Part shown: one piece after another, positions 4,228 through 50,725 of the stretch
Position numbering within the stretch: position 1 is the first letter of the stretch
Layout of the letters: each line of letters starts with the position of its first letter
Source of the DNA: a virus
Length of the DNA stretch: 50,776 nt
Reading direction: 5' to 3' (one strand)
Virus record (IMG/VR): IMGVR_UViG_3300021373_001563
Span: 1-50,776 of that record
The notes under the pieces: model-generated
Told to the model about the DNA's origin: nothing
The model's database searches: none
What the model saw: only the letters and a program-made list of their open reading frames with translations
Made by a program: the position numbers and the translations under genes

Positions 4228-5450
4228 TATGTATCATCCGCCTTTGGTCGTAATGCTTTAGAAAGTGCTTGCTTTTCTGTAACTTGCTCACCGCCAATTT
4301 CACTAACTGTATTATTATTAATAAATGATGTGAGTTGAGTTTTACGTTCACTGGTGTTAGTCATTGTCATTCTAACATCATCGTACATACGCAACCATCG
4401 TTGCCCGTCAAATTTAAATAGTCTATTTGGCAAATAATCAGTACGTAAAAAATAATCTCCAGCATCATTTTCTGCAGGAAATTTAATGCCGCTACCAAAT
4501 GCAGCACCATTGGGCGGTTCTCCGTTACTTACTAAGTAACCTGCATATCCCATTTTCTCCGGCGCACTTGCTGTAGGATCTTCAACTGTATTAACAGTTG
4601 CATTGCCACGATCATCAACATCAACTGTATAATAATGACTTACATCGTAACCACTTTTTGGTGCGTCAGCTTCTGCTTCAGAAAGTACAGCGTTATTAAT
4701 TTGCATTTCTTTTTCATATGTTGAAAGCAAATCTCTTAAAGTATTGTCTTGATATTCTTGCCAAAAATTTGTATCTGTAGGTAAATTTCCTGTTGTTTCT
4801 TGTATTACTTCGTACAATACTCCTTGATATTTTACAGTTTCTCCTACAGCATACGTAACAGTTTCATCATAATCGCCCATAAACAAATCGTCATTTTCAG
4901 GACGTTCTAGTATATCACGATACTCTTGGCTGTCTACTATTGATTTTAATTTTAGTCTATACAAATGAGGATACCAAGTTGGAGAAAATCCTTCTGCTGC
5001 ACGATTAACATCTTCTACTACATAGTATCTTTTAAGACTTGTAGCAAAATCATTTTCTGCATATTCATCTTTTAAGTGCGGAAGTTCTAGTACATCTCCA
5101 CTCATAATTTTACGTCCAACTGCTTCAACACTACTGTTTATATGTACAGTCATAAACAATGTGTCATTACTTAAGAATAATCCAAATTGACTTAGATCAA
5201 AATCTATGTCTTGAACATTGTAAATACCTCTAATAGTGTATATGTCAGGATCGTATTTTCTGTCTCTATTTTCTAAAAATAGTAAGTCCTGTATTTGTGT
5301 ATGATCCTTTGCTGTTTCGCCGTCATCAGTACCTATATACTTGTGTATATTAATATCAGTACCGCCAACAGTAAACATTTCATAGATGCGCTGATCCATA
5401 AATTTGTAATCATTACCCTTTTGTGGTTTGTATAAACTTAGTCTTGGCAT
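4227..5450 (-). CDS. gp14: Neck protein gp14-like, with carbohydrate-binding-like insert
   Basis: I place the start at 5450 (MPRLSLYKPQ), not at the longer in-frame ATG at 5495, because a late promoter motif on this strand ends 5 bases before it. The result is 407 residues against about 256 in T4. Residues 17-185 carry the neck-protein core (MDQRIYEMF, GTDINIHKYIG, FGLFLSNDTLFMTVHI). Residues 194-232 (YDETVTYAVGETVKYQG through PTDTNFW) resemble a CBM5/12 chitin-binding-type module, and residues 331-355 form a second aromatic module (LFKFDGQRWLRM). In T4, gp14 with gp13 completes the neck so that head and tail can join. The added modules may let the neck touch glycans; that is inference. Confidence 0.7.
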   Translation of the reverse strand: MPRLSLYKPQKGNDYKFMDQRIYEMFTVGGTDINIHKYIGTDDGETAKDHTQIQDLLFLENRDRKYDPDIYTIRGIYNVQDIDFDLSQFGLFLSNDTLFMTVHINSSVEAVGRKIMSGDVLELPHLKDEYAENDFATSLKRYYVVEDVNRAAEGFSPTWYPHLYRLKLKSIVDSQEYRDILERPENDDLFMGDYDETVTYAVGETVKYQGVLYEVIQETTGNLPTDTNFWQEYQDNTLRDLLSTYEKEMQINNAVLSEAEADAPKSGYDVSHYYTVDVDDRGNATVNTVEDPTASAPEKMGYAGYLVSNGEPPNGAAFGSGIKFPAENDAGDYFLRTDYLPNRLFKFDGQRWLRMYDDVRMTMTNTSERKTQLTSFINNNTVSEIGGEQVTEKQALSKALRPKADDT

Positions 5451-5455
5451 ATACA

Positions 5456-5463
5456 TATTTATC
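5456..5463 (-). promoter_or_regulatory. Late promoter of gp14 (leaderless)
   Basis: GATAAATA on the minus strand, followed by 5 bases and then the ATG at 5450. By T4 late-promoter geometry the transcript would start on the A of the ATG. Confidence 0.75.
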
Positions 5464-5468
5464 GAAAC

Positions 5469-5476
5469 GATAAATA
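5469..5476 (+). promoter_or_regulatory. Late promoter of gp13
   Basis: GATAAATA on the plus strand. The predicted transcript has a short leader with an ACGGAG ribosome site before the gp13 ATG at 5496, unlike the leaderless minus-strand partner. Confidence 0.75.
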
Positions 5477-5495
5477 CTAGTACGGAGAACTTCAT

Positions 5496-6257
5496 ATGGC
5501 AGAATTAATCAAACAAAAACAAGAAGTATATGACTATGTTTACAGCCTCTTAGGCGGCGGAATGGTCGATGTTGAGCTTGATCCAGAGCACTACGAAACA
5601 GCGTTAGGTAAAGCTCTATCAAAATATAGACAAAGAAGCGACCACAGTGTAGAAGAGTCGTATATCTTTTTACCTTTGCTAGAAGATACAAACGATTATA
5701 TTTTACCAAGCGAAGTTATTGAAGTTAGAAAAATTTTCCGTAGGTCAATTGGTTCGAGAACAGGCAACGGCGGTGGAGGAACGGTATTTGAACCGTTTAA
5801 TCTTGCATATACAAACACTTATTTGTTAAGTGGTAGTACACAAATGGGCGGACTTGCAACATACGATATGTTTGCACAGTATCAAGAACTAGTAGGTAGA
5901 ATGTTTGGTTCGTTTATTGAATTTAAATGGAATACTACAACGAAAAAACTTACACTATTTCAACGCCCAAGAGCAAACGAAGAAGTATTATTAATGTGCT
6001 ATAATTATAGACCAGACAGTCAGCTATTAGAAGATTATCTTGCTAAACAGTGGATTAAAGATTATACACTTGCAAGTTGTAAGTATATGCTTGGCGAAGC
6101 ACGTAGTAAGTTTGCAACTATTGCCGGACCTCAAGGCGGCACTAGTCTTAATGGTGATACACTAAAAGCAGAAGCTGTTCAAGAGATGGAAAAACTAGAA
6201 GCAGATGTAAGTAGTGCAGTTGCTGGCGGCACAGGATATGGATTCTTAATAGGCTAA
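5496..6257 (+). CDS. gp13: Neck protein gp13-like
   Basis: A 253-residue protein that resembles gp13 of T4-like phages (309 residues in T4), which sits between portal and tail and works with gp14. Visible family features are the N-terminal helical LDPEHYETALGKALSKYRQR region at about residues 27-46, a YILPSEVIEVRKIF strand at about 68-81, and the C-terminal WIKDYTLASCKYMLGEARSK helix at about 187-206. The start is supported by an ACGGAG ribosome site 8 bases upstream. It is divergent from gp14 and its late promoter is one half of the palindrome at 5456-5476. Confidence 0.75.
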   Translation: MAELIKQKQEVYDYVYSLLGGGMVDVELDPEHYETALGKALSKYRQRSDHSVEESYIFLPLLEDTNDYILPSEVIEVRKIFRRSIGSRTGNGGGGTVFEPFNLAYTNTYLLSGSTQMGGLATYDMFAQYQELVGRMFGSFIEFKWNTTTKKLTLFQRPRANEEVLLMCYNYRPDSQLLEDYLAKQWIKDYTLASCKYMLGEARSKFATIAGPQGGTSLNGDTLKAEAVQEMEKLEADVSSAVAGGTGYGFLIG

Positions 6258-6261
6258 TAGG

Positions 6262-6290
6262 TTGACATAACCAATATTATATTGTATAAT
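6262..6290 (+). promoter_or_regulatory. Consensus sigma70-type promoter of iscU
   Basis: TTGACA, a 17-base spacer and TATAAT: both hexamers match consensus. The ATG is 11 bases beyond the -10, leaving a leader of about 5 bases and no ribosome site. Confidence 0.8.
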
Positions 6291-6301
6291 TAAAAAATAT
6301 T

Positions 6302-6773: not shown

Positions 6774-6802
6774 GTAAATTATATTGTACGGAGAATCATT
6801 TA

Positions 6803-7363
6803 ATGCTACCTAAATTGCTTGTTGTCGGACACGGCAGACATGGAAAAGATACTGTCTGCGAAATGTTAGAAAAGTACGGTTACACATTTCAATCTAGTTC
6901 AAAATTTTGTTCAGAGCTTTTTATCTACAACGAACTTAAAGACAAATACGGTTACGCTAACGAAGACAAATGCTACGAAGATAGGCATAATCATCGAGCC
7001 GAATGGTACGACATGATTCATAACTATTGTAAAAATGACTTAGCACGTTTGGGTAGAAATTTATTTGCTCAAAATAATATTTATTGTGGACTTCGTAATA
7101 AACGAGAATTTTTTGCTATGCAAAATGAAGAAATTTTTGATTATGCTATTTGGGTAGATCGTACAGATCATTTACCTACAGAAGATCCAAGCTCTATGAG
7201 TATCGAACAATGGATGTGCGATTATACTATAGATAACAATGGTGATTTAGAAAGATTACAACTTAATGTTGATACGCTTATTCGTACTATTTTTAGAAAT
7301 CGGGGATTAGGTCACCTTGTTTCCAACGGACCCCGTCCTTTTGAATTAGTCTCTGGCAGTTAG
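6803..7363 (+). CDS. P-loop deoxynucleoside monophosphate kinase-like protein
   Basis: A 186-residue protein with a P-loop at residues 9-17 (GHGRHGKDT), a form with Asp after Lys that is typical of phage dNMP kinases (T4 gp1 type). Such enzymes phosphorylate dNMPs to supply DNA synthesis. A conserved IWVDRTDHLP stretch lies near residues 120-129. The start has an ACGGAG ribosome site. The last 23 codons lie opposite the end of the HNH gene on the other strand, so the C-terminus (PRPFELVSGS) may have been altered when that gene arrived. The kinase assignment is by P-loop type and context; another P-loop nucleotide kinase is possible. Confidence 0.65.
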   Translation: MLPKLLVVGHGRHGKDTVCEMLEKYGYTFQSSSKFCSELFIYNELKDKYGYANEDKCYEDRHNHRAEWYDMIHNYCKNDLARLGRNLFAQNNIYCGLRNKREFFAMQNEEIFDYAIWVDRTDHLPTEDPSSMSIEQWMCDYTIDNNGDLERLQLNVDTLIRTIFRNRGLGHLVSNGPRPFELVSGS

Positions 7364-7634
7364 CACAAATAGTTTTTAAATTGGTAGGTCTGCAATTTGT
7401 TAGATCTCCATCTATATGATATACATCAAACTGCTCACTGTGTTTACTTTCAAAACCACATTTTTCACACTGACTCTTTTTCTCATATCCGTGACGAGCC
7501 CATCGAGGAATGCCTTTACCGGTGCCATTATACCTAGCACAACTTTCGCACTTTGATCTATAAAATACTTTATTACCTTTGTAATAGTTTATAGCAGCTG
7601 GTTTTTTCTTACAATTTTTACATAAAGGTCGCAT
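7293..7634 (-). CDS. HNH endonuclease-like zinc protein
   Basis: A 113-residue protein of the small phage HNH type. It has an N-terminal pair of CxxC knuckles (C5/C8 and C29/C32), a second pair (C56/C59 and C90/C93), and an HNH-like core VYHIDGDLTNCRPTNL at residues 71-86. Such proteins are free-standing homing-type nucleases or, in some phages, packaging-associated nickases. It converges on and overlaps the dNMP-kinase-like gene by 71 bases. A late motif on the minus strand ends 5 bases before its ATG, so it is predicted to be late and leaderless. Confidence 0.8.
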   Translation of the reverse strand: MRPLCKNCKKKPAAINYYKGNKVFYRSKCESCARYNGTGKGIPRWARHGYEKKSQCEKCGFESKHSEQFDVYHIDGDLTNCRPTNLKTICANCQRLIQKDGVRWKQGDLIPDF

Positions 7635-7639
7635 ACATT

Positions 7640-7647
7640 TATTTAGC
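7640..7647 (-). promoter_or_regulatory. Late promoter of the HNH gene (leaderless)
   Basis: GCTAAATA on the minus strand, then AATGT and the ATG at 7634. Confidence 0.65.
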
Positions 7648-7702: not shown

Positions 7703-7710
7703 GCTAAATA
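7703..7710 (+). promoter_or_regulatory. Late promoter of the tail sheath gene
   Basis: GCTAAATA, 36 bases before the gp18 ATG. The leader carries an AGGAG ribosome site. Confidence 0.65.
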
Positions 7711-7746: not shown

Positions 7747-10700
7747 ATGGCATTAACATCACCAGGCGTAGAGGTCAAGGTAATTGACGAGAGTTTTTAC
7801 ACTCCGGCAGAACCAGGAACTGTACCAATGATATTCGTTGCTACCGCAGAAAATAAAACAAACGGTAGCGGAACAGCAACAGCAGAAGCAACAACAAAAG
7901 CTAATGCTGAAAAACCAGTATTACTAACATCGCAAAGAGATCTTGCAGATAAGTTCGGCGATCCAATTTTTTATACTGATGCAAACAATAACCCAGTACA
8001 CGGCGGAGAACTAAACGAGTACGGCTTACAAGCAGCATACTCACTTTTAGGCGTAAGCAATGCAGTATATGTTACAAGAGCAGACGTTGACTTAGGTCAA
8101 CTACAGCCTACAGCAGAAGCACCAAGTGCAAATCCAGCAGGCGGAACTAACTGGCTTGATACACAAAATACAGCATGGGGCATATTTGAATGGAATGGTG
8201 CATCAGCAGCACAAACAGACGGGCAAACATTCCAAGTTAAAACACCTATTGTTATTACTGATACTACAAAAATTGCACCAAACGGATCTCCAAAAACATC
8301 AGTTGGACAAAAAGGCGAATATGCTATTAAAGCAACAACAAACGTAATTAAAGTTTTCTACAAGAATTATTTAGGCGAATGGGTAGAAGTAGGAAGCAAT
8401 GATTGGGTTGATAGTCATCCAACAATAGTTGCTGATTCATCAGCAAACGAAGCAAGTTTTGTAGGCGGTTCGGCTACATTTACGTTATCAGTTGGAGCAG
8501 CTGATTATAGCATTGCAGAAGATGCAACACTAGACGCAACTATTTCAGCAGCAAATATTCAACTAGCTAATGCAAACACAGGCGTAAGATTAGAAAAAAT
8601 TGACGGCAAAGTTCATATTTTTAATGATGGTTCAGCAGACTCAACTATTTCATTAGCAGCTGGCGCCGGCGTAGGCGGTGACTTACTTCCTTTACTAGGA
8701 CTTTCAGTACAGACAAAACTTTGTCCTGCACTACAAGTTAGCCCACATACAAGTGTTCCAGAATTTAAAATGAACGACACAAGCCCACGTCCAACAGGAT
8801 CTGTTTGGGTTAAGACTACAGAACCAAATCAAGGTGCCCGTTGGAGATACAAGCGTTGGAATTCAGAAACAGAACTTTTTGATGCTGTTGAATTACCAAT
8901 TTATGCATCAGCAGCAGGCGCATTATTTGATTTAGATCGCTCAAGTGGCGGCCTTGGTCTTGCAGCAGGTGATTCTTATGTACTATCAAATGCACAAGGC
9001 ACATCACCAGCAAGAGCAGCATTTACTGTATACGAAAGAGTAGGCACAGGAACTACAAGAATCGAAGGCGGCGTAATTGGAGCAACATTTACTCCTGGTA
9101 ATGAATCATTTACTATTGCAGAATCTGCACCAGGCGTACAAGGTGTTGGTGATCCTGTAACAGTTTCATTTGCAGTAGCAGGAAACTCAGATGATGCTGA
9201 CGTTATGGCAGGTGCTATCAACTCAGCAGGACTAAACTATGTTGTTGCAAGTGTAGTTGGTGATAGAGTTGTTATTGAACATACCGCTGGCGGCGAAATG
9301 GAATTTGTTGATACTTCAGCAGCACTATCAGGCGCAGGCTTTACAGCATACGATTATGCAGACGGTTCAGGAACAGCAAACCTTTATGTTAAAGTAGGAA
9401 CTTCGGGTTCAGATGACCCGCTTACATTAACAGCAAGTAACTGGAAAAAAGCAACACTAACAGCAAGCGATGATGCACCATCAAGTTTAGCAGCAGACGG
9501 CCAACTATGGTATAACTCAGTTGTTGACGAAGTTGACATTATGGTACATGACGGTAATAGCTGGAGAGGTTATCGTGTAGCATATCCTGATTCAGATCCA
9601 ATGGGTCCAATAGTTAGTGCAACAGAACCAGAAAAGCAAAGCGACGGTTCACCACTAGTTGAAGGCGACCTTTGGGTAAGCACTGCTGATATTGAAAACT
9701 ATCCATTAATTTATCGCTATAATGGCGTTACTCTAAAGTGGGTATTACTAGATAGCTCAGATCAAACTACAGAAAACGGTGTACTATTTGCAGATGCACG
9801 TTACAACACAGCAGGCGCAAACAGTGGAACAGCAGGTGATATTGTAGACTTGCTAAGTTCAGATTATGTAGACGGCGATGCTCCACAAGCAGCACTATAT
9901 CCAAGAGGTATGTTGTTATGGAACCTACGTAGAAGTGGATTTAATGTTAAGCGTTTTGTACGTAATTATGTTGACATTAACGCAGACAATGCAGTTAGCG
10001 GCGAAAGCCAAGCAAATTACTATCCACACCGTTGGGTAACAGCATCAGCTAACCAAGCAGATGGATCAGGTAGTTTTGGCCGTAAAGCACAGCGTCAAAT
10101 TGTTATTACTGGACTACAAGCAATGGTTAGCGGAGTTGACGAATTAAGAGATGACGAAACTAGACTATTCAATGTAATGGCAACACCAGGTTATCCAGAA
10201 CTAATTGGAGAAATGGTAAGTCTAAACTATGACAGAGGTTTAAGTGCATTTATTGTAGGCGACAGTCCAATGAGATTGAAGCCAGATGCAACTTCACTTA
10301 ATGAGTGGGGTACTAACGTTCGTCTAGCAGTTGAAGATAACGACGACGGCTTAGTTAGTAGAGACGAGTACATGGGTGTTTATTATCCAGCAGGATTTAC
10401 AAGTGATAACGTAGGTAACAACATTGTTGTTCCACCAAGTCATATGGCACTTCGCACTATTGCACTAAGTGATCAAGTTTCTTATCCATGGTTTGCACCC
10501 GCAGGTACAAGACGTGGCGGTGTAACTAATGCAACAGCAACAGGTTATATTAGTGACGAAGGAGAATTTGTAAGTGTTGCACTTAACGAAGGTCAACGCG
10601 ATACATTGTATTCAAACGCAGTTAACCCAATTACAACACTAGCAGGCGCAGGCCTTGTTGTATTTGGACAAAAAACTCGTGCAAGAAATGCAAGCTCACT

Positions 10701-11019
10701 TGATAGAGTGAACGTAGCACGTTTAGTTGTTTACTTAAGAAGCCAGCTAAACAAACTAGCAAAACCTTACTTGTTTGAACCAAATGATAAGATTACTAGA
10801 GATCAAATCAAAGCAGCAGCAGAGAGCTTATGTTTAGAGCTAGTAGGACAAAGAGCACTTTATGACTTCTTAGTTGTTTGTGATGAATCAAACAATACTC
10901 CAGGAAGAATAGATCGTAATGAGCTATACTTAGACATTGCAATTGAACCAGTTAAAGCAGTAGAATTTATTTACATTCCACTAAGACTTAAGAATACAGG
11001 AGAAATTGCAGGACTTTAA
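7747..11019 (+). CDS. gp18: Tail sheath protein gp18, greatly enlarged
   Basis: Start MALTSPGVEVKVIDES and end IPLRLKNTGEIAGL are the two conserved ends of T4-like tail sheath proteins, the contractile outer tube. At 1,090 residues it is far longer than T4 gp18 (659). The extra mass is in the middle and includes three aromatic modules: about residues 345-388 (GSVWVKTTEP, RWRYKRWN), 577-611 (DGQLWYNSV, HDGNSWRGYR) and 627-672 (GDLWVSTAD, YRYNGVTLKW). These resemble the GDLW...YW.G..W units of fibre proteins and probably sit on the outside of the sheath. It has an AGGAG ribosome site and a late promoter and ends at a hairpin terminator. Confidence 0.9.
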   Translation: MALTSPGVEVKVIDESFYTPAEPGTVPMIFVATAENKTNGSGTATAEATTKANAEKPVLLTSQRDLADKFGDPIFYTDANNNPVHGGELNEYGLQAAYSLLGVSNAVYVTRADVDLGQLQPTAEAPSANPAGGTNWLDTQNTAWGIFEWNGASAAQTDGQTFQVKTPIVITDTTKIAPNGSPKTSVGQKGEYAIKATTNVIKVFYKNYLGEWVEVGSNDWVDSHPTIVADSSANEASFVGGSATFTLSVGAADYSIAEDATLDATISAANIQLANANTGVRLEKIDGKVHIFNDGSADSTISLAAGAGVGGDLLPLLGLSVQTKLCPALQVSPHTSVPEFKMNDTSPRPTGSVWVKTTEPNQGARWRYKRWNSETELFDAVELPIYASAAGALFDLDRSSGGLGLAAGDSYVLSNAQGTSPARAAFTVYERVGTGTTRIEGGVIGATFTPGNESFTIAESAPGVQGVGDPVTVSFAVAGNSDDADVMAGAINSAGLNYVVASVVGDRVVIEHTAGGEMEFVDTSAALSGAGFTAYDYADGSGTANLYVKVGTSGSDDPLTLTASNWKKATLTASDDAPSSLAADGQLWYNSVVDEVDIMVHDGNSWRGYRVAYPDSDPMGPIVSATEPEKQSDGSPLVEGDLWVSTADIENYPLIYRYNGVTLKWVLLDSSDQTTENGVLFADARYNTAGANSGTAGDIVDLLSSDYVDGDAPQAALYPRGMLLWNLRRSGFNVKRFVRNYVDINADNAVSGESQANYYPHRWVTASANQADGSGSFGRKAQRQIVITGLQAMVSGVDELRDDETRLFNVMATPGYPELIGEMVSLNYDRGLSAFIVGDSPMRLKPDATSLNEWGTNVRLAVEDNDDGLVSRDEYMGVYYPAGFTSDNVGNNIVVPPSHMALRTIALSDQVSYPWFAPAGTRRGGVTNATATGYISDEGEFVSVALNEGQRDTLYSNAVNPITTLAGAGLVVFGQKTRARNASSLDRVNVARLVVYLRSQLNKLAKPYLFEPNDKITRDQIKAAAESLCLELVGQRALYDFLVVCDESNNTPGRIDRNELYLDIAIEPVKAVEFIYIPLRLKNTGEIAGL

Positions 11020-11058: not shown

Positions 11059-11066
11059 GATAAATA
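11059..11066 (+). promoter_or_regulatory. Late promoter of gp19
   Basis: GATAAATA, 7 bases after the gp18 hairpin. The leader carries a CAGGAG ribosome site before the ATG at 11089. Confidence 0.75.
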
Positions 11067-11088: not shown

Positions 11089-11721
11089 ATGGCAATCTCA
11101 ACATTATCAAAAATTACAGTACCACTAGCTAGTGATTCTAGTGCAAGTAACCAAGGCTTGTTAATGCCTAAGTTACAGTATCGCTTTAGAGTGACACTAG
11201 AAAACTTTGGCGTAAGTGGTAATACAACAGAACTAACAAAACAAGTAGTAGACGTAACTCGTCCTAACTTAACTTTTGAAGAAATTACTTTAGATGTTTA
11301 CAACTCAAGAAGTTACCTAGCAGGTAAGCACACTTGGGAACCAATTACTCTTAACGTAAGAGACGATGTAAGCAACAACGTTACTAAGCAAGTTGGCGAG
11401 CAACTTCAGAAGCAATTTGACTTCTTTGAACAGTCAAGTGCAGCATCAGGTATTGATTACAAGTTCTTAACTCGTATTGAAATGCTTGACGGTGGCAACG
11501 GTGCAAACGAAGTCGGTGTATTAGAGACTTGGGAGTGCTATGGTTGCTTCTTAACTAATGCAAACTATAACACAATGGCATATGCTACCAATGATCCAGC
11601 AACTATCGCACTATCAATTAGATACGATAATGCTATTCAAACACCACAAGGTACTGGTATTGGTACAGCAGTTGGTCGTACAGTTAACACTCTAGTAACT
11701 GGCGGCGGCGGCGCACAGTAA
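11089..11721 (+). CDS. gp19: Tail tube protein gp19
   Basis: A 210-residue protein directly after the sheath gene, as in T4 where gp19 (163 residues) forms the inner tube of the tail. Characteristic stretches are LQYRFRVTLENFG at about residues 29-41, VVDVTRPNLTFEEI at 52-65 and the WEPITLNVRDD strand at about 83-93. The C-terminal 25 residues are Gly/Thr-rich and probably flexible. It has its own late promoter and ribosome site and is followed by a strong terminator, which suits a protein needed in many copies. Confidence 0.85.
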   Translation: MAISTLSKITVPLASDSSASNQGLLMPKLQYRFRVTLENFGVSGNTTELTKQVVDVTRPNLTFEEITLDVYNSRSYLAGKHTWEPITLNVRDDVSNNVTKQVGEQLQKQFDFFEQSSAASGIDYKFLTRIEMLDGGNGANEVGVLETWECYGCFLTNANYNTMAYATNDPATIALSIRYDNAIQTPQGTGIGTAVGRTVNTLVTGGGGAQ

Positions 11722-11796: not shown

Positions 11797-11804
11797 GATA
11801 AATA
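11797..11804 (+). promoter_or_regulatory. Late promoter, leaderless, for the tube-like gene
   Basis: GATAAATA, spacer TATGT, then the ATG at 11810. Confidence 0.75.
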
Positions 11805-11809: not shown

Positions 11810-12949
11810 ATGGCAAACAAGTTAAACGGATTCTTAGATAATTTTTTCGGTGGAGTTACTAATCCAAAAGGAATAGTAGGCGACTTCCAACATGCTCAGC
11901 GTTTATATGTTGACAATGCATTTCGTCTTGCACCTAAGGTAAAATTCCTTTACTTTGTAAATTTTAATTTTACAGATTCAGTAATTAGGGCTTTTCCAAA
12001 GATGGCACAAAGGCATAGAGCAGAAATGAATATGCTTTGTAAGCAAATTGATTTGCCACAATATACTGCTACTGTAGATACAAAAAATCAATATAATAGA
12101 AAAAAGAATATACAAACTAGAATTGATTATTCTCCGGTTAACATTCTTATGCACGACGATAATTTGGGAATTACTAATTCTTTAATGCAAGCATACTATA
12201 GATATTACTATAGAGACGGCAATATTTCAGATATTAGTGCAACATATGATCCTCGAAGTACATATAAAGAAAGTAACGGAAGAGGTTATAGGTTTGGTTT
12301 AGACAACGATAAACTTGAACCATTCTTTAAGAATATAAAATTATATCAATTTAGTAGACATCAATATCAAGAATATACATTAATTAATCCAATAATTACA
12401 GCATGGGGCCATGATACTATGGACCAAACAGACGGCGCCGGCATAGTAGAAAATAAAATGGCTTTAAATTACGAAGCAGTTTTATATTCAGACGGTGTAG
12501 TAGGCGAAGACGATCCAGCAACTTTTGCATCTAGTCACTATGATAAAACACCAAGTCCTTTAAGTGTACAAGGCGGCGGCGTTGCTAATCTTTTCGGCGG
12601 TGGCGGCATATTAGACGGTGCTTCTAGTGTATTAGGTGATATTACTAGTGGTAATGTTGGTCTAGGAACATTACTTACTGCGGCAAATACAGTACGCAAT
12701 GCAGGAGATTTATCAAAAGACAGTCTTAAAAGAGAAGGTTTTAGTATACTAACTAATGCAATAGTAAGTGCTGGACAAGATCCTTCACCAGGCGGAATTA
12801 CAGGTACATTCTTTGGCAAGAATAGTGGCAAAGGTACTGAAACAACACAAGCAGTAAGTAAGAATGATAATACCTCGCAAGAAGCTAAAGCACAAAAAAT
12901 AGGACAAGCACAAGAAGCTAATGGCTTACCAAATACAACAGGAACTTAA
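11810..12949 (+). CDS. Tail-tube-like virion protein (baseplate or tube-completion)
   Basis: A 379-residue protein. Residues 40-240 resemble the tube-fold proteins of marine T4-like phages: VKFLYFVNFNFTD at about 44-56, MLCKQIDLPQYTATVDTKNQ at about 75-94 (the conserved strand that faces the next subunit), then NRKKNIQTRIDYSPVNILMH. T4 has three tube-fold proteins: gp19, and the baseplate proteins gp48 and gp54. Which of these this one matches cannot be decided by eye. The C-terminal third is Gly/Ser-rich (LFGGGGILDGASSVLGD). It is predicted to be translated from a leaderless late mRNA and runs straight into the next two genes with gaps of 2 bases. Confidence 0.5.
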   Translation: MANKLNGFLDNFFGGVTNPKGIVGDFQHAQRLYVDNAFRLAPKVKFLYFVNFNFTDSVIRAFPKMAQRHRAEMNMLCKQIDLPQYTATVDTKNQYNRKKNIQTRIDYSPVNILMHDDNLGITNSLMQAYYRYYYRDGNISDISATYDPRSTYKESNGRGYRFGLDNDKLEPFFKNIKLYQFSRHQYQEYTLINPIITAWGHDTMDQTDGAGIVENKMALNYEAVLYSDGVVGEDDPATFASSHYDKTPSPLSVQGGGVANLFGGGGILDGASSVLGDITSGNVGLGTLLTAANTVRNAGDLSKDSLKREGFSILTNAIVSAGQDPSPGGITGTFFGKNSGKGTETTQAVSKNDNTSQEAKAQKIGQAQEANGLPNTTGT

Positions 12950-17333: not shown

Positions 17334-17837
17334 ATGACAAAAAAATTAGAAGAATTATTAGACTTGCCTGAATCAAAAGAAATTATTGAAAAGGCTGAGT
17401 CACAAGAACAAGATCAAAAAGCTCACGAAATAGAGCGTCAAAAAGACACATTTCGAGATATAGCAGAATTTGATAAAATTAGTGCTGCACTACCTGCTGT
17501 AAAAGGACTAGGAGATTTAGCAGATAAAGAGCTAAACGAAGTTGCAGATAAAGCAATGCAAGCATATGATGATCTAATGGACTTAGGAATGAATGTAGAA
17601 AGTCGGTATAGTGGCAGAGTTTTTGAAGTAGCAGGTAATATGCTCAAGACTAGTTTAGATGCTAAAACGCAAAAGTTAGATAAAAAACTAAAAATGATTG
17701 AATTACAGCTCAAAAAACAGAAGCTAGATAATGATTCTAATGTAAACGATGGTGATATTATTAACGGCGAAAACTATGTAGTCACTGACAGAAATAGCCT
17801 ACTAGAGAAGCTAAAAGGACTTGATAAAGATAAATAA
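17334..17837 (+). CDS. gp16: Small terminase subunit gp16
   Basis: A 167-residue protein, almost the same length as T4 gp16 (164), with the same plan: a short acidic N-terminus, a central pair of long helices (about residues 55-135, including AMQAYDDLMDLGMNVESRY and GNMLKTSLDAKTQKLDKKLK) and a charged C-terminal tail. The small terminase forms a ring that recognises DNA and regulates the large terminase gp17, which lies two genes downstream. The stop codon is inside the next late promoter. Confidence 0.75.
   Translation: MTKKLEELLDLPESKEIIEKAESQEQDQKAHEIERQKDTFRDIAEFDKISAALPAVKGLGDLADKELNEVADKAMQAYDDLMDLGMNVESRYSGRVFEVAGNMLKTSLDAKTQKLDKKLKMIELQLKKQKLDNDSNVNDGDIINGENYVVTDRNSLLEKLKGLDKDK
17829..17836 (+). 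promoter_or_regulatory. Late promoter of the head-internal gene
   Basis: GATAAATA overlapping the gp16 stop; the next ATG is at 17859. Confidence 0.65.
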
Positions 17838-17858: not shown

Positions 17859-18416
17859 ATGAAATCTTTTAAAGAATATTTAACAGAGTCTAAAAAGACT
17901 TACCCATTTAAAATAGCAATCGCTGGCGAGTTGCCAGACGGTTTTAACGATTATCTAAAAACTTGTTTAGAACGATTTAAAGTATCAGAATTGTCAAGTG
18001 GTAAAAAGACACCAATACAAGAACGTCCTTTAGATTTTCCTAATTTACACAATATGGAAGTTACGCATTTTGAAGCAGATCTATTATATCCAACAACTGC
18101 ACAAGTATTGGGTGAATATTTAGATGCTTGTTGCGATTGCCCAGCAGGCCATATTGTTGTGCGTAATGCTGCTGATCCACTTGAACTTTATCAAGAAGAA
18201 GCAGCCGATGATGCATACGAAGTAAAACTTACTCAAGAAGAGATGGGCGGAGAAAGTGCGCAAGACTCCGTAGCAGGCAACAGAGTAATGGACCTATTAA
18301 AAGAACTAGAAGTTGCTCGCAAAGAAAGAGAACACGATCCAGCTGCCGCTGCACCTGTTGGTGAAAGCAGTGATATTGATAACACAGAAAATGCTACATC
18401 GGTAGTAGGAGGATAA
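17859..18416 (+). CDS. Putative internal head protein with capsid-targeting N-terminus
   Basis: A 185-residue protein I cannot assign to a named family. Its N-terminus MKSFKEYLTES resembles the capsid-targeting sequence of T4 internal proteins (MKTYQEFIAE), which directs proteins into the prohead and is removed by the gp21 protease after an L/I-x-E motif. Here L8-T9-E10 would be the cut site. The rest is acidic, with a CCDCPAG cluster near residues 91-97 and an Ala-rich C-terminus. Its place between gp16 and gp17, with a late promoter, fits a head component. Confidence 0.5.
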   Translation: MKSFKEYLTESKKTYPFKIAIAGELPDGFNDYLKTCLERFKVSELSSGKKTPIQERPLDFPNLHNMEVTHFEADLLYPTTAQVLGEYLDACCDCPAGHIVVRNAADPLELYQEEAADDAYEVKLTQEEMGGESAQDSVAGNRVMDLLKELEVARKEREHDPAAAAPVGESSDIDNTENATSVVGG

Positions 18417-19064: not shown

Positions 19065-19091
19065 AATAGGCACTTCGGTGCCTATTTTTTT
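19065..19091 (+). terminator. Intrinsic terminator with TTCG tetraloop
   Basis: A 9-base perfect stem (AATAGGCAC / GTGCCTATT) closed by TTCG, followed by a T-run to 19091. It separates the head genes from terL. Confidence 0.9.
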
Positions 19092-19092: not shown

Positions 19093-19100
19093 GTTAAATA
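19093..19100 (+). promoter_or_regulatory. Late promoter of the large terminase (leaderless)
   Basis: GTTAAATA directly after the terminator T-run, then CAGT and the ATG at 19105. Confidence 0.7.
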
Positions 19101-20691: not shown

Positions 20692-20694
20692 ATA
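20687..20694 (+). promoter_or_regulatory. Late promoter, leaderless, for the 646-residue protein
   Basis: GATAAATA overlapping the terL stop codon, then TTAGT and the ATG at 20700. Confidence 0.75.
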
Positions 20695-25576: not shown

Positions 25577-26130
25577 TGTCTCATTCAAATGATTATCTAG
25601 AAGAATTAAAACTTTTACACAACAAAAAAACATTTGGAACTGCATCAAATATTCCAAACGAAGTAAAAGAGCTTATAGAAAATCAATCAGTTAATAGTAT
25701 ATTAGACTTTGGTGCAGGAAAAGGACTAACTTCTTCTGCATTAAAGTCTAATTACAATATTAATGTATACACATACGATCCAGTAACATTCCCAATAAAA
25801 CTTCCAGATCAAGTTGACTTAGTATACAGCAGTGATGTACTAGAACATGTTGAACCTAATCTTATTGATAACACATTAAAAGACCTTTCACATAGAGCGC
25901 AACTATATCAGTATCATTTAATAGCGTGTCATCCTGCAAAAAAATCACTAAGTGACGGACGTAATGCTCATTTAATTATTAAGCCGCCTAAGTGGTGGAA
26001 AGAAAAAATATCTAAATTATCAAATTGGGAAATAGTACACGAAGAAGTTAGAGAATGGACAGCAAAAGTAAAAAAAGGTCCGCTTCGAGATATTGTAAAG
26101 TATGTTGTATTACTTAAAAAATGTACTTAA
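25576..26130 (+). CDS. SAM-dependent methyltransferase
   Basis: A 184-residue class I methyltransferase. The start at 25576 overlaps the previous stop (TAATG). Motif I is ILDFGAGKGLTSSAL (about residues 43-57), followed by an acidic residue at the end of strand 2 (VYTYDP) and a motif-IV-like DLVYSSDVLEHVEP. The domain resembles methyltransferases of small molecules and sugars rather than DNA methyltransferases, since no DPPY or PCQ motif is visible. It is the first gene of the sugar island and converges on the sulfotransferase with a 17-base overlap. The target is unknown. Confidence 0.75.
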   Translation: MSHSNDYLEELKLLHNKKTFGTASNIPNEVKELIENQSVNSILDFGAGKGLTSSALKSNYNINVYTYDPVTFPIKLPDQVDLVYSSDVLEHVEPNLIDNTLKDLSHRAQLYQYHLIACHPAKKSLSDGRNAHLIIKPPKWWKEKISKLSNWEIVHEEVREWTAKVKKGPLRDIVKYVVLLKKCT

Positions 26131-26731: not shown

Positions 26732-26736
26732 GATAG

Positions 26737-26744
26737 TATTTATG
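26737..26744 (-). promoter_or_regulatory. Late promoter of the sulfotransferase (leaderless)
   Basis: CATAAATA on the minus strand, then CTATC and the ATG at 26731. It forms one arm of an inverted repeat with the promoter at 26759. Confidence 0.75.
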
Positions 26745-26758
26745 TAGTTAACTGCGCA

Positions 26759-26766
26759 CATAAATA
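26759..26766 (+). promoter_or_regulatory. Late promoter of the nucleotidyltransferase-cupin gene (leaderless)
   Basis: CATAAATA, then TCTAT and the ATG at 26772. The arms TATTTATGT (26737-26745) and ACATAAATA (26758-26766) are exact complements 12 bases apart. Confidence 0.75.
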
Positions 26767-26771
26767 TCTAT

Positions 26772-38172: not shown

Positions 38173-38180
38173 TATAAATA
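38173..38180 (+). promoter_or_regulatory. Exact T4 late promoter (leaderless)
   Basis: TATAAATA, the exact T4 consensus, then CAGT and the ATG at 38185. Confidence 0.8.
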
Positions 38181-38184: not shown

Positions 38185-38958
38185 ATGTCACTTATATCTA
38201 GATATTTAGTCAACAACAGAACCAAACTTGTAGCCAATGTGGCAGGATTCGTAACGGAGTATAGACCAGTGTATCAAAAAACAATTTCAATTTACAAAGG
38301 TATTGATAATACCTTAGAGTTTCAGATTTTAAATCCTGATCAAAAACCTATTCCATTAACAAACCAAACTGCACACTTTGTTGCTTTTGATTCTGAAAAC
38401 AATCAAGTAATAGAGCATACTGGTGAAGTAGTTATTTCAAATAAAGGGTTATTTAAAATTGTTATCACTGAAAACGATACTTTAAATGTTGATTCACAAT
38501 ATTTGTCCTACAGTGTTTATTTAACTGATACAGCAGCAACAAAAACACTAACTTATGCAGACGAACAACTAGGTGCAAAAGGTACACTACATCTTTCAGG
38601 TGAAGCATTTCCTGGTCCAAAGAACTCGTATACTATTACAACATTCTTACAAGCTGGTGTCGATAGTGACGAATACGTAAGCGAAGCAGTAACAGCTCAA
38701 CCTGCACTTAACGGAAATGATGCACTACACACTGCGGTTTTTTATACAAATAATTATGACGGCGACATTTTAATTCAAGCAACATTAGATAATAGTTTAA
38801 ATGAAGCTACAAACTGGGCAACTATTGAATCAGTCAATTTTGATGGATCTGAATCTCAACCTATACCGTTTAACTTTAATGGTGTATACAGTTATCTAAG
38901 ATTTAAAACATCAGCAAATCCAGAAAATAAAATCACAAAAATATTAGTCAGAAACTGA
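38185..38958 (+). CDS. Virion structural protein, late
   Basis: A 257-residue protein; the start at 38185 (MSLISRYLVNN) is set by the late promoter, and an earlier in-frame ATG at 38116 is rejected. It looks all-beta: YQKTISIYKGIDNTLEFQIL, then ISNKGLFKIVITENDTLNV and a C-terminal YNYDGDILIQATLDNSLN-like strand pair typical of tail or baseplate accessory proteins. I do not recognise a named family. It is isolated among replication genes, and its stop touches the primase promoter. Confidence 0.6.
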   Translation: MSLISRYLVNNRTKLVANVAGFVTEYRPVYQKTISIYKGIDNTLEFQILNPDQKPIPLTNQTAHFVAFDSENNQVIEHTGEVVISNKGLFKIVITENDTLNVDSQYLSYSVYLTDTAATKTLTYADEQLGAKGTLHLSGEAFPGPKNSYTITTFLQAGVDSDEYVSEAVTAQPALNGNDALHTAVFYTNNYDGDILIQATLDNSLNEATNWATIESVNFDGSESQPIPFNFNGVYSYLRFKTSANPENKITKILVRN

Positions 38959-41968: not shown

Positions 41969-42234
41969 GATATTATTTAAGTTCTTGTGAGTATAAATGG
42001 ACACATGCAGATACAAAAACAGAACAACTTTGGATTATGCGTGAGCTAGGAGAAGAGATTTACAAAACTATAGAATCTAACGACTGGGAGTGGAAGTTAC
42101 TAAGAAGTGAAAGTCAAACACTGCCAGGAGATATTTACTGTCGTTGTGATATCTATGTTGAAATACCTGATACAAAAGAAGGAACACATTTTGTATTAAA
42201 GTATCCGGAGGCAACACCAATTAAAAAATATTAA
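41965..42234 (+). CDS. Small hypothetical protein
   Basis: An 89-residue protein in ATGA overlap with the previous gene. It starts MRYYLSSCEYKWTHADTKTE, with an alpha/beta pattern and several aromatic residues (WEWKLLRSE) and a GDIYCRCDIYVEIPD strand. I do not recognise the family. It ends just before a late promoter. Confidence 0.5.
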   Translation: MRYYLSSCEYKWTHADTKTEQLWIMRELGEEIYKTIESNDWEWKLLRSESQTLPGDIYCRCDIYVEIPDTKEGTHFVLKYPEATPIKKY

Positions 42235-42237
42235 ATA
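42230..42237 (+). promoter_or_regulatory. Late promoter of oxygenase copy 2 (leaderless)
   Basis: ATTAAATA over the preceding stop codon, then CTAT and the ATG at 42242. Confidence 0.65.
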
Positions 42238-42241: not shown

Positions 42242-42787
42242 ATGTTAATAAAACCAGATAGTATTGAATTATGCAAACCCTTTCAGCTATTTAAGCCTGA
42301 AGATTGTACAAAAATAATAGACGAAGCATCAAAATTTCCTGGTAAACGATCCGGAGTCGCAGGAAATTATACTGGTGTAGGACGCACCAGTACAACACAT
42401 TGGTGGACACCATCATTTTTTGATATACAAGATCTACTACCATACTTTCAACCTTTTTATGATATAGGGTATCCTGTTGATGTAGTAGCTAGACCTATTC
42501 AAATTGCTAAGTATGAACCAGGGCAGTTTTTTGGTTGGCACTACGATCAATTTACCGGTAAAAAGAAATCAGGAAGACTGTTAGGTTTAACTTGCACATT
42601 ACAAAGAGCTCCAGGCGCATATTTAGAATCTAAAGAACACAAATGGGACCTAGGCGTCGGCCAAGCAGTTATTTTTCCGTCTAATATATTACATAGAGCA
42701 ACTGCGCCAATAGACGGCGAAAGATGGGCGTTTACTACATGGGGCCACGGAAAAATTACAAAAATTGCTAAACGCAAAGGTAAGTAG
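42242..42787 (+). CDS. 2OG-Fe(II) oxygenase, copy 2
   Basis: A 181-residue oxygenase of the prolyl-4-hydroxylase type: H100-x-D102 in FFGWHYDQF, H151 in SNILHRAT and R161 in GERWAF. The strand RLLGLTCTLQ and GVGQAVIFPS fit the double-stranded beta-helix core. It is not close to copy 1 at 36714 outside the core. Expressed late from a leaderless transcript, and next to the tail-fibre genes, it could hydroxylate a fibre protein, but this is inference. Confidence 0.85.
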   Translation: MLIKPDSIELCKPFQLFKPEDCTKIIDEASKFPGKRSGVAGNYTGVGRTSTTHWWTPSFFDIQDLLPYFQPFYDIGYPVDVVARPIQIAKYEPGQFFGWHYDQFTGKKKSGRLLGLTCTLQRAPGAYLESKEHKWDLGVGQAVIFPSNILHRATAPIDGERWAFTTWGHGKITKIAKRKGK

Positions 42788-47668: not shown

Positions 47669-49855
47669 ATGGAAAAAGAATATACAGTAATTGTAAACAA
47701 CAGAGAAGATCTTGCAACAGTTGAAGCAGAGCTAACTGCATCAAGCGGCGCAGGTCCTATTCCAACACGTAGTGTAGGTATTGCTAATCCGCGCCTTGGT
47801 TCTCGAGTACAAACACACTTTATGCTTACCGACGAAGAAGCAGAAGCACTACGCAGTGATGCAAGAATACGTGCTGTAGAAATTCCACCAGAGAACAGAA
47901 CAGATGTGCAGATTGGCAAAAACGCATCACAAACAGCAGAATATCTAAGAGACGAAACTAATCAAGATCAAAAAGTAAATTGGGGCTTGTTGAGATCAAA
48001 CTATAAAACAAACGTGTACGGAGCATTAGACAATGCAGGTACAGTATTTGAATATGCACTTGATGGTACAGGCGTAGATGTAGTTATTCAAGATTCAGGT
48101 ATAGAAGCAAATCATCCTGAGTGGGAAGATGCAGACGGTGTGTCAAGACTACAGCAAATTAACTGGTATACAGAATCAGGTATTTCGGGAACACAAGATC
48201 CTGGCTTCTATTCAGATTACGACGGCCATGGCACACACTGTGCAGGGATTGCAGCAGGTAAAACCTACGGTTGGGCCAAAGGTGCTCATATATATGCACA
48301 GAAGTTAGCAGGTCTAGAAGGACCAACTGATCCTGGAAATGGTATTAGTATTTCAAATGCATTTGATACAATACGTCTTTGGCACAATGCAAAAACAAAC
48401 AATAGACCTACAGTTGTAAACATGAGTTGGGGATATTCATTTACTACTAACCAAGATCCTAGTAATGGCGTATACAGAGGAACAAGTTGGACTTGGCCTG
48501 CAGACTATAACAACGATAGCGCACTATGGTCAGCTACAGGTGTAGTAAATCCATATGGCAATGGCGACAGAGTAATACCAAGTCGCTTGGTTTCAATTGA
48601 TGCTGAAGTAGAAGACATGATCACAGACGGCATACACGTCTGTATAGCCGCAGGCAACAACTACTACAAAGCAGATGTTGTTGGCGGATTGGACTACAAT
48701 AACACAGTAACATTTTCAGGCCTTGTTCAAAATTATGCTAGAGGCAGCAGTCCTTACAGTGACAACGCATTCATGGTTGGCAACATAACTGCTATACCAA
48801 AACAAGACGGCGCTGTTTATCTAGACAAAAAGAGTGCCAGCAGTACCAGTGGACCAGGCGTGGGCATTTGGGCACCAGGTGATGGTATTATGAGCGCAGG
48901 CTCAAACACTAGTATATACACTACTGTTGATTATCCTGCAGACACAAATTACAAGATCATGTCAATAGGCGGCACAAGTATGGCAGCACCGCAGGTAGCA
49001 GGAGTTGCAGCACTGCACCTACAGGTGTTCCCCGACGCTACACCAGCACAACTACAAGCAAGAATACAAGCAGACGCACAAGCAGTGATCTACAGCACAG
49101 GATCAAGCACAGACTACACTAACCAAGAAAGTATTATTGGTTCAGAAAATAGAATGCTGTGGAATAGATATGGACGTCAACCAGGACAGATCAGTCTAAG
49201 TGACACAGTGATACCTGCACCTACACCAACATATAACCTAAGCACAACAGCAACCACAGTCAACGAAGGTGCTACAGTTAGAGTAACATTGAACACACAG
49301 TATGTACCAAACGGCACAGAGGTTGACTACACCATCACAGGCATCAACTCAAACGATCTAAGCGCAGGTCTTTTGTCAGGTAGTTTCACTATACAAAACA
49401 ACACAGACTTCGTAGAGTTTACACTGGCCAATGACACTAGTACAGAAGGCACAGAAACTCTTACGTTTGCACTGGATAACTCAGCAGACAGTCTAGACAT
49501 TACCATAACAGACAGTTCAACTACGCCACCACCTGAGACATTTAATATCAATGTCACAGCAGCAGGCAACACAGCATACACACTCAACGGCACAGATCGC
49601 AACGGATCAATCAGCAGTGACAACGCAACTGTTAGACTGCAAACAGGTGATACTGTGAACTTTAATGTTAGTGCTAGTGGTCATCCGTTTTGGATTAAAA
49701 CCAGTCAAAGCACAGGCACAGGCGATGCTGTAGCAGGAGTAACCAACAACGGTTCAGAAGAAGATACTGTGACTTGGCAACCAAACACCACAGGCACTTT
49801 CTATTACATCTGTGAAGTACACAGCTCAATGACAGGTGAAATTATAGTATCATAA
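47669..49855 (+). CDS. Subtilisin-like serine protease with Calx-beta-like and cupredoxin-like domains (copy 2)
   Basis: A 728-residue paralogue of the subtilase at 14954. Catalytic D142, H187 and S437, oxyanion N330. Propeptide-like residues 1-75 are nearly the same as in copy 1 (FMLTDEEAEALR). A Calx-beta-like domain at about 520-615, lacking in copy 1, separates the protease from the cupredoxin-like domain at about 620-728 with H672, C715, H718 and M721. There is no signal peptide. Exact 36- and 33-base runs are shared with copy 1. Late expression is expected, since it is 10 bases after the fibre-like gene of the late operon. Confidence 0.9.
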   Translation: MEKEYTVIVNNREDLATVEAELTASSGAGPIPTRSVGIANPRLGSRVQTHFMLTDEEAEALRSDARIRAVEIPPENRTDVQIGKNASQTAEYLRDETNQDQKVNWGLLRSNYKTNVYGALDNAGTVFEYALDGTGVDVVIQDSGIEANHPEWEDADGVSRLQQINWYTESGISGTQDPGFYSDYDGHGTHCAGIAAGKTYGWAKGAHIYAQKLAGLEGPTDPGNGISISNAFDTIRLWHNAKTNNRPTVVNMSWGYSFTTNQDPSNGVYRGTSWTWPADYNNDSALWSATGVVNPYGNGDRVIPSRLVSIDAEVEDMITDGIHVCIAAGNNYYKADVVGGLDYNNTVTFSGLVQNYARGSSPYSDNAFMVGNITAIPKQDGAVYLDKKSASSTSGPGVGIWAPGDGIMSAGSNTSIYTTVDYPADTNYKIMSIGGTSMAAPQVAGVAALHLQVFPDATPAQLQARIQADAQAVIYSTGSSTDYTNQESIIGSENRMLWNRYGRQPGQISLSDTVIPAPTPTYNLSTTATTVNEGATVRVTLNTQYVPNGTEVDYTITGINSNDLSAGLLSGSFTIQNNTDFVEFTLANDTSTEGTETLTFALDNSADSLDITITDSSTTPPPETFNINVTAAGNTAYTLNGTDRNGSISSDNATVRLQTGDTVNFNVSASGHPFWIKTSQSTGTGDAVAGVTNNGSEEDTVTWQPNTTGTFYYICEVHSSMTGEIIVS
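48164..48199 (+). repeat. 36-base exact direct repeat, copy B
   Basis: Identical to 15455-15490; the partner 33-base run is at 48290-48322. Both lie in the same frame and position of the two subtilase genes. Confidence 0.9.
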
Positions 49856-49967
49856 CCAAACATACTAGTGTGCATGTGTAACACTCGAAACGTGAGTATC
49901 GCCATTTAACGCCGAAACTATAGCCCTAAAACACCCCTAGCGTACAGGTTGTTCAAAAGATGAGCCT

Positions 49968-50369
49968 TTAGAACGCACGGGTGAAACTAATACCCAGTTG
50001 ATCATTGTTTATGACCACAGCCACTTGCACAACTGTAGCTGCTTTGAATCCCCAACGAAAGTTCTCGCGTTCAAAACCCAAACGACCCATACTATAATAC
50101 TGAGCAGCAAGTACACCCAGTTTTAGAGCGGCTGTGCTGTCTGAACTAGGTCTACGTCCCAGTATAGGATTTGCTTCACTGTAGAGATATCGGCCTGAAG
50201 GTCCAGTCTGTCGTAGAGCCCATGCAGTTTGTCGGTAGTCTATGTAGCTGGCAACTGCATAGGTTGTGAACCATGCTCGCTCTTCATCTGTCCACTGTGA
50301 ATAGTGTCTAAACTCGTCTCCTATGGCAGGAGACCCTACTAATAGCAGTAGCAGTATGATTGCCCTCAT
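49968..50369 (-). CDS. Small exported or membrane protein
   Basis: A 133-residue protein. The start at 50369 (MRAIILLLLLVGSPAIGDEF) is set by a late promoter motif ending 5 bases upstream; an ATG five codons earlier is rejected. The N-terminus is a textbook signal peptide with likely cleavage after AIG. Two later hydrophobic stretches (TAALKLGVLAAQYYSM and ATVVQVAVVI) may be membrane segments. The motif YIDYRQTAWAL...NPILG recalls a small membrane-protein family, but I cannot name a function. A spanin-like or envelope-acting role late in infection would suit the signal peptide. Confidence 0.65.
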   Translation of the reverse strand: MRAIILLLLLVGSPAIGDEFRHYSQWTDEERAWFTTYAVASYIDYRQTAWALRQTGPSGRYLYSEANPILGRRPSSDSTAALKLGVLAAQYYSMGRLGFERENFRWGFKAATVVQVAVVINNDQLGISFTRAF

Positions 50370-50374
50370 ATGTA

Positions 50375-50382
50375 TATTTAGC
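50375..50382 (-). promoter_or_regulatory. Late promoter of the exported protein (leaderless)
   Basis: GCTAAATA on the minus strand, then TACAT and the ATG at 50369. Confidence 0.7.
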
Positions 50383-50410
50383 ACCAGGTGTTAAAATTTT
50401 AACTCAGCAG

Positions 50411-50504
50411 CCCGAAGGGTTTAAGCCCAAAAAGCGCGAAGCGCCTGCGCAAGTACACCAGCCGCGAAGCGGTAAACGCTTTTCGCTAGAATCCAGCGTT
50501 TACC
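50411..50504. repeat. Cluster of GAA-loop mini-hairpins plus a larger stem
   Basis: Three tiny perfect hairpins share a GAA loop: CCC-GAA-GGG (50411-50419), GCGC-GAA-GCGC (50434-50444) and CCGC-GAA-GCGG (50462-50472). The last two contain GCGAAGC, known to form an unusually stable DNA hairpin. A fourth stem pairs GGTAAACGC (50471-50479) with GCGTTTACC (50496-50504) around a 16-base loop; it covers the stop codon of the right-hand gene and may act as its terminator. The patch is far more GC-rich than its surroundings. Confidence 0.7.
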
Positions 50505-50712
50505 TTAGCACAATCTCATACTCACCGGGATTGGCTAGTACAAGCTGAGCCAACATGCAATCTCTTGACCGCTCAAAGGTTAACGATCGATAGTCTGACT
50601 GATAACTGTCTATTGAGTGTTTCAACCAAAGAGTAACACTGTGTGCGTACACAAGTGCATCAATGGCTTGTTCACTAGTAATAGTATGAAAGTTGAATTC
50701 TAGCGTGTGCAT
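50500..50712 (-). CDS. Small hypothetical protein, 70 residues
   Basis: Start at 50712 (MHTLEFNFHTITSEQAIDAL) chosen because a near-late motif on the same strand ends 5 bases upstream; a longer form from 50748 is possible. It appears to be one alpha/beta unit with a helix (ITSEQAIDALVYAHSVTLWL) and an ending YEIVLR. I do not recognise it. The stop lies within the hairpin cluster. Confidence 0.45.
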   Translation of the reverse strand: MHTLEFNFHTITSEQAIDALVYAHSVTLWLKHSIDSYQSDYRSLTFERSRDCMLAQLVLANPGEYEIVLR

Positions 50713-50717
50713 ACACT

Positions 50718-50725
50718 TACTTATA
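50718..50725 (-). promoter_or_regulatory. Variant late motif for the last gene (leaderless)
   Basis: TATAAGTA on the minus strand (one mismatch to TATAAATA), then AGTGT and the ATG. Confidence 0.45.

Follow-up and report, generated by a model that had tools for sequence, protein, structure and literature searches.

Late transcription in bacteriophage T4 is a model system. Its late promoter element, TATAAATA, spans positions -13 to -6, and the first T (-13) is poorly conserved in most of the other T4-like phages studied, as given in the accessible part of the source (PMC1524935). Leaderless messengers are known from phages as well: lambda cI is an example (PMC9031893, accessible part), and phage transcripts are called "often leaderless" in a paper in which the leaders of phage AR9 itself measure 26-491 nt (PMC5312081, accessible part). 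Late-promoter prediction in pelagimyophage genomes is described as "unsuccessful" (PMC7029224, accessible part). Our full-text literature search, with subscription papers mostly outside its coverage and long lists covered in part, returned no recognised report of leaderless late genes in T4-type phages, cyanophages or pelagiphages; in the literature searched, T4 late promoters are described with leadered genes only. Here we analyse the IMG/VR virus record IMGVR_UViG_3300021373_001563, a stretch of 50,776 bases (the window, at its full length) of the linear class, which is often a fragment. In this window the motif TAAATA, or a one-mismatch form of it, lies 4-5 nt before the start codons of eleven genes. 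Comparison with related phages indicates that a conserved subset of the late genes here is very probably transcribed from T4-type late promoters into leaderless mRNAs, and that a leadered class exists alongside it.

Results

The sequence-only reading of the window had listed eleven motif-ATG pairs, eight with a spacing of 5 nt and three with 4 nt, and all eleven were found at their places. As for the motif itself, the T4-type core is exact at ten of the eleven sites (TAAATA at 5 nt in seven, at 4 nt in three), and the eleventh carries a weakened form, TAAGTA at 5 nt. On the minus strand, TAAATA stands 5 nt before the ATG of the gp14-like gene (motif 5456-5461, gene 4227-5450), the small HNH-type gene (7640-7645, gene 7293-7634), the sulfotransferase-like gene (26737-26742, gene 26114-26731) and a putative exported protein (50375-50380, gene 49968-50369), while the imperfect TAAGTA precedes the last gene (50718-50723, gene 50500-50712). 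On the plus strand, the 5-nt spacing occurs before the tail-tube-like gene (11799-11804, gene 11810-12949; PHROG tail tube), the gene of a 646-residue virion protein starting at 20700 (20689-20694, where the motif overlaps the gp17 stop codon) and the nucleotidyltransferase-cupin gene (26761-26766, gene 26772-27533). The 4-nt spacing, also on the plus strand, precedes the terminase large subunit gp17 (19095-19100, gene 19105-20691), a virion protein (38175-38180, gene 38185-38958) and a 2OG-Fe(II) oxygenase (42232-42237, gene 42242-42787; Pfam PF13640). A full TATAAATA is present at one of the eleven sites, that of the 38185 gene (38173-38180). As TATAAATA occupies -13 to -6 in T4, a 5-nt spacing would set +1 on the A of the ATG. 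The spacing class comprises packaging, neck and some virion proteins, the small HNH gene and accessory enzymes.

The open reading frames (ORFs) of six of the eleven genes (5450, 19105, 26731, 38185, 50369 and 50712) open further upstream in the ORF list, so that these ATGs were the choice of the sequence-only reading. Homologues back the choice at 5450, 19105 and 38185; there are few close homologues for 26731, and none were found for the 50369 and 50712 genes in the clade loci examined. The TAAGTA at 50712 is weak evidence alone, because in relatives TAAGTA contexts occur at 5 nt (18) and are also frequent at 11 nt (16) and 41 nt (15). The 40 bp between the divergent ATGs at 26731 and 26772 (26732-26771) hold two opposed TAAATA motifs and leave no room for leaders.

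T4-type genes for structure and DNA functions are present in the window (neck, tail sheath, tail tube, terminase, gp32, UvsX). The terminase shares 55% identity with its counterparts in Pseudomonas jumbo phages (PA5oct group), 48% with that of Sinorhizobium phage Phosso and 29% with that of T4. By these comparisons the window phage is a jumbo T4-type phage with PA5oct as its nearest named relative, and is not close to T4 or the cyanophages. Contigs of its clade reach 200, 275 and 335 kb. For the analysis of relatives, a first scan gave at least 597 related stretches, of which the 80 best were retained (terminase 87-100% identical), and further loci came from scans with gp14 (78) and with the 38185 protein (23). 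The clade set, 217 loci and contig pieces from IMG/VR, amounts to 2.77 Mb with some overlap, and each context in it was counted once. Genome-contig matches of the clade were limited to three contigs of metagenome-assembled genomes (MAGs), two binned as Neomarinimicrobiota and one as Spirochaetaceae, perhaps phage contigs co-binned with their MAGs. Two contigs, L378 (PBPT01000016, 335 kb) and L379 (PBPT01000082, 153 kb), carry clade terminases within a Neomarinimicrobiota MAG, and gp55-like and gp23 matches in the same MAG fall on two contigs, one of them the 335-kb contig; L378 and L379 are probably phage contigs in that bin.

A scan of related genomes had been suggested as a check, and the spacing did not vanish in close relatives. 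Before ATGs opening at least 80 codons, the clade set holds 94 distinct TAAATA contexts at 4 nt and 196 at 5 nt; none lies at 3 nt, three lie at 6 nt, 11 at 7 nt and 10 at 8 nt, and a second, broad hump follows at ~16-32 nt. The 308 ORFs with TAAATA or TAAGTA at 4-5 nt (ORFs running off a contig omitted) fall into 53 families, ten with at least three members; some of the single-member families will be chance. Homologues were then counted family by family, omitting alignments that start after residue 12, starts less than 70 nt from a contig end and repeated 45-nt contexts. The spacing of 4-5 nt is kept by 52 of 53 terminase gp17 homologues, 40/41 of the HNH-type protein (7634), 48/54 of the 646-residue protein (the other six at 7-8 nt), 19/30 of the nucleotidyltransferase-cupin (26772) and 13/18 of the 38185 protein (one more at 8 nt, four leadered); the tube-like protein (11810) has it at 5 nt in 32/32, and gp14 at 5 nt in 22/27, with two more at 8 nt. 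Eight of the nine listed genes with homologues thus keep 4-5 nt in more than half of them, the oxygenase (42242) on the strength of a single homologue context (1/1). Gene-by-gene conservation therefore stood for eight genes and failed for the sulfotransferase (26731), with 2/10, most of the ten being distant. The sulfotransferase, oxygenase, exported and last genes contribute little to the case for conservation.

The DNA upstream of the terminase varies among relatives and is often a terminator-like hairpin, and the spacing is kept nonetheless. In the window, a hairpin with a T-run resembling an intrinsic terminator lies directly upstream of the terminase promoter (19065-19091, plus strand), and many homologues share this layout. 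Of 304 leaderless-class contexts, 92 have such a hairpin within the 70 nt upstream; the figure is 5 of 436 for leadered contexts and 2 of 400 for random places. These counts are pooled over families, and the terminase probably accounts for much of the first. On L378, near positions 681 and 2001, the terminase (83%) is leadered, with TAAGTA and AAGG, and a different gene follows a terminator-like hairpin with 5-nt spacing; the mode can therefore switch. The deposited start of the PA5oct terminase (L082 1347, NC_071039) lies inside the loop of a terminator-like hairpin, and an in-frame ATG 27 nt downstream, soon after the T-run, may be the real start.

The coexistence of the two modes, noted in the sequence-only reading, holds and is divided by gene family. 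Leadered controls in the window, all on the plus strand, carry TAAATA 19 nt before gp13 (motif 5471-5476, gene 5496-6257, GGAG), 36 nt before the tail sheath gene gp18 (7705-7710, gene 7747-11019, AGGAG), 22 nt before the tail tube gene gp19 (11061-11066, gene 11089-11721, AGGAG) and 22 nt before a virion protein gene (17831-17836, gene 17859-18416). Among homologues, a leader together with a Shine-Dalgarno (SD) site was found in 40/40 for gp18 and 42/42 for gp19; gp13 has a leader in 27/28, 26 of these with an SD site, and the 17859 protein in 45/47, 35 of these with one. In the sheath, tube and gp13 families the motif lies 10-54 nt upstream and an SD site is almost always present; proteins of the abundant type (sheath, tube, capsid) are indeed led by SD sites, as had been supposed. 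An SD-like tetramer was detected in 25 of 288 leaderless-class contexts vs. 229 of 377 leadered ones. The early-type genes gp32 (37 homologues) and uvsX (45) never show the 4-5 nt spacing and all have an SD-like site. Predicted RNA structure over the first 40 nt did not differ between the eleven genes and 53 window genes (-2.84 vs. -2.79 kcal/mol).

Both forms meet in the 45-bp divergent region between gp14 and gp13 (5451-5495), which holds a back-to-back pair of motifs, one on the left at 5 nt from the gp14 ATG and the other on the right at 19 nt from gp13. The pair was recognised in 22 of 30 distinct homologous regions; some of the eight uncounted regions show the motifs by eye, the gp13 start being misplaced there. 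Across the 24 regions displayed, the two motifs are separated by 2-18 bp, and each arm keeps its own form.

In a profile reaching 8 bases upstream of the core, the 5-nt and leadered classes share an A directly before the core and T-A two and three bases after it. At the second base upstream of the core, G is found in 66-67% of leaderless-class and 54% of leadered copies, and T directly precedes the ATG in 88% of the 5-nt and 96% of the 4-nt contexts. Two records of the clade, G001 and G006, encode a gp55-type late sigma factor (PHROG 12791, E 1e-78 to 3e-80), in G006 on the 335-kb contig, in which 20 of 340 genes show the spacing. In both records the gp55-like gene is preceded by TTGACA and TATAAT elements and an SD site, which would suit an early gene. 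BLAST with Syn9 gp33 gave matches in T4, S-PM2 and HTVC008M and none in the window, G001-G005 or PA5oct.

Of all 6-mers in the window, TAAATA shows the highest enrichment at 4-5 nt before any ATG (10 vs. 2.25 expected, p = 1.2e-4), while overall it is rarer than expected (64 vs. 87). The same any-ATG count averaged 3.4 (maximum 10) in 300 first-order Markov sequences and 2.5 (maximum 8) in 300 fourth-order ones. At gene starts, 9 of 53 called genes have TAAATA 4-5 nt before the ATG, against a null mean of 0.26 and a maximum of 3 in 1000. The histogram of distances is bimodal, with three genes at 4 nt, six at 5 nt, none at 0-3 or 6-18 nt and nine at 19-36 nt. The any-ATG test in the window alone is moderate; it is the relatives that make the case.

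In other phages, gene-start spacing counts and 6-mer screens were made on 20-kb pieces, genes cut at piece ends being lost; the window was taken whole, and the spacing in HTVC008M was counted at its deposited starts. The 4-5 nt spacing was found at 18 of 281 genes in the 275-kb relative, 9 of 171 in the 200-kb relative (two more at 6 nt) and, as given above, 20 of 340 in the 335-kb contig (one more each at 3 and 6 nt). No peak was seen in T4 (0/198), Syn9 (0/149), S-PM2 (0/170) or PA5oct (1/317). That T4 late genes are usually leadered, as the sequence-only reading assumed, agrees with the T4 distances from TAAATA to ATG, which cluster at ~22-29 nt. The cultured Pelagibacter phage HTVC008M has the spacing at 13 of 198 deposited starts (12 at 5 nt, one at 4 nt); TAAATA lies at 3 nt before none and at 6 nt before one. 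Among the 13 are genes for the tape measure, DNA end protector, head closure, tube cap, tail completion and two proteins of the baseplate. SD sites precede the capsid, sheath and tube genes of this phage, and gp55-, gp33- and gp45-type proteins are listed in its annotation. Smaller peaks in Mosig (5/158) and Melnitz (3/161) are weak cases.

Screening every 6-mer without bias placed TAAATA at 5 nt on top in both the 275-kb relative (p = 5e-9) and HTVC008M (p = 5e-10), and the top positional 6-mers of T4 were SD sites. Counted without a gene filter, the raw pattern stood out from its reversed control in HTVC008M (16 vs. 7) and G002 (23 vs. 11), and did not in T4 (10 vs. 12), PA5oct (20 vs. 30), Phosso (4 vs. 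2), Atu_ph07 (17 vs. 26), Syn9 (3 vs. 7), S-PM2 (6 vs. 3), Vibrio 2.275.O (6 vs. 5), 121Q (6 vs. 25) and P-SSM2 (6 vs. 10). An alphaproteobacterial host as the cause was rejected, as Caulobacter phage Cr30 and Sinorhizobium phage phiM12 gave no matches to the TAAATA pattern, the one pattern searched in them.

Elsewhere in the window, positions 4-1779 encode a 591-residue DUF285/BspA-like leucine-rich repeat protein (PF03382, E 8e-33), and positions 47669-49855 a 728-residue protein that contains a subtilase domain (PF00082) and weakly matches FlgD-Ig; its PHROG matches include protease and tail fibre families.

Discussion

In the reading that we propose, the motif would form the core, positions -11 to -6, of a late promoter of T4 type. 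A gp55-like late sigma factor would recognise it, and its placement would make transcription begin on the A of the start codon. The product would be a 5'-AUG mRNA without an SD site, and ribosomes would bind its terminal AUG directly. Other late genes, including those of abundant tail proteins, would have the same core ~16-36 nt upstream, a leader and usually an SD site. The sharp limits at 4-5 nt hint at a need for the mRNA to begin exactly with the AUG.

Several results weigh against this proposal. The +1 position is borrowed from T4, and the 4-nt class, about a third of the contexts, would need a start one base nearer, or else the mRNA loses its A; this class also has C-A after the core, unlike the T-T-A of the 5-nt class. 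Among the late-transcription proteins, gp55 was not found in the window or in G002-G005 (the 275-kb relative and three shorter contigs), which may be fragments, nor gp45 (PF09116) in G001, G002 or PA5oct. In the unbiased screen SD 6-mers were top in the 335-kb relative, with TAAATA fourth, and in the 200-kb relative they outranked TAAATA, which is not among the eight 6-mers listed; there the raw pattern is barely above its reversed control (17 vs. 12). The HTVC008M terminase lies outside the 4-5 nt class. The absence of an SD site is not peculiar to the leaderless class, since 148 of 377 leadered contexts also fail the SD test and the operon-internal gene 14954 lacks a site in 9 of 14 copies. 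Start codons at 4-5 nt (ATG 290, GTG 2, TTG 3 in the clade set) were set aside as a test of leaderlessness, because leadered starts are mostly ATG too.

The promoter may be real and its starts may scatter, giving leaders of 1-5 nt and mRNAs that are near-leaderless rather than exactly 5'-AUG. Both spacings do occur within single families (in gp17, 23 at 4 nt and 29 at 5 nt), and the 21 contexts at 7-8 nt, which imply leaders of 2-3 nt or chance, count for scatter and against our proposal alike. Yet 290 contexts at 4-5 nt beside three at 6 nt and none at 3 nt are too sharp for it unless the exact end matters, and the T at -1 in 88-96% of contexts points to one fixed base; we therefore regard scattered starts as quite improbable. 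If, instead, the motif were a translation signal, an AU-rich landing site for ribosomes on an mRNA that starts further upstream, its occupation of the SD position at these genes would be accounted for. However, the same core with similar neighbours also stands upstream of SD-leadered late genes, two motifs lie back to back in the gp14-gp13 region, terminator-like hairpins sit just upstream of many terminase copies, and the motif matches the T4 late core as published in the accessible part of PMC1524935. The shared core, the hairpins and the divergent pair disfavour a translation enhancer, and we hold it to be very unlikely.

That the true starts lie upstream, with the ATG after the motif internal, is suggested by the six of eleven ORFs that open further upstream. 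This is hard to reconcile with 196 of 304 leaderless-class contexts (64%), which have no possible in-frame upstream start before a stop, with the frequent hairpins in the DNA upstream of gp17 homologues, and with HTVC008M, in which 13 of the 16 pattern matches open an ORF of at least 40 residues and all 13 are deposited starts; upstream starts are extremely unlikely. Chance in AT-rich DNA, where TAAATA before ATG would be common, can point to the any-ATG count of the window (10), which only equals the maximum of the first-order shuffle. It is rejected with near certainty by the gene-start test (9 vs. 0.26), the distance counts of the clade, the conservation across families, the unbiased 6-mer screen and the lack of a peak in T4, S-PM2 and PA5oct, whose guanine-cytosine content is near the window's. 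Predicted leaderless late mRNAs, transcribed from T4-type late promoters, thus remain by far the best explanation.

The leadered class may be that of abundant tail and head proteins and the leaderless class that of terminase, neck, HNH and accessory genes, and the split may set protein amounts or timing. A tentative and rather unlikely extension is that one promoter type feeds two translational classes of late mRNA tuned by a phage-encoded bS21. The bS21 gene is present in five of six records above 140 kb with the spacing: G002 (181826-181981, minus strand), the G006 phage contig (C57 47250-47396), HTVC008M (91228-91431), Mosig and Melnitz, but not G001; it is absent from T4, Syn9, S-PM2 and P-SSM2. 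Against the link, bS21 also occurs in PA5oct, where the spacing is lacking, and the three marine phages HTVC008M, Mosig and Melnitz are not independent cases because these phages are related. The bS21 gene is only a lead.

If the proposal is true, two separate lineages, the jumbo clade and the Pelagibacter phage, would rely on 5'-AUG initiation for essential proteins, in the jumbo clade including the terminase. The cultured SAR11 phage HTVC008M offers a testable set of 13 genes, and the spacing supplies gene-finding programs with a start signal overlooked by SD models. It may also be one reason why the late-promoter search in pelagimyophages failed.

What appears to be new is that T4-type late promoters and leaderless mRNAs, each already known, would be joined here. 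The clade resembles T4, with its gp55/gp33/gp45-dependent late promoters, in the TAAATA core, in the late structural genes that carry it and in the gp55-like sigma factor of clade members, and its leadered late genes look T4-like; it differs in that a whole gene class seems to be without a leader. The spacing of 4-5 nt recurs in HTVC008M, Mosig and the OM43 phage Melnitz, which are T4-type marine phages. With known leaderless mRNAs the class shares a 5'-terminal AUG, here predicted, and few SD sites; unlike them, it would extend over the whole genome under a phage sigma-type promoter, with the mode largely constant within a gene family.

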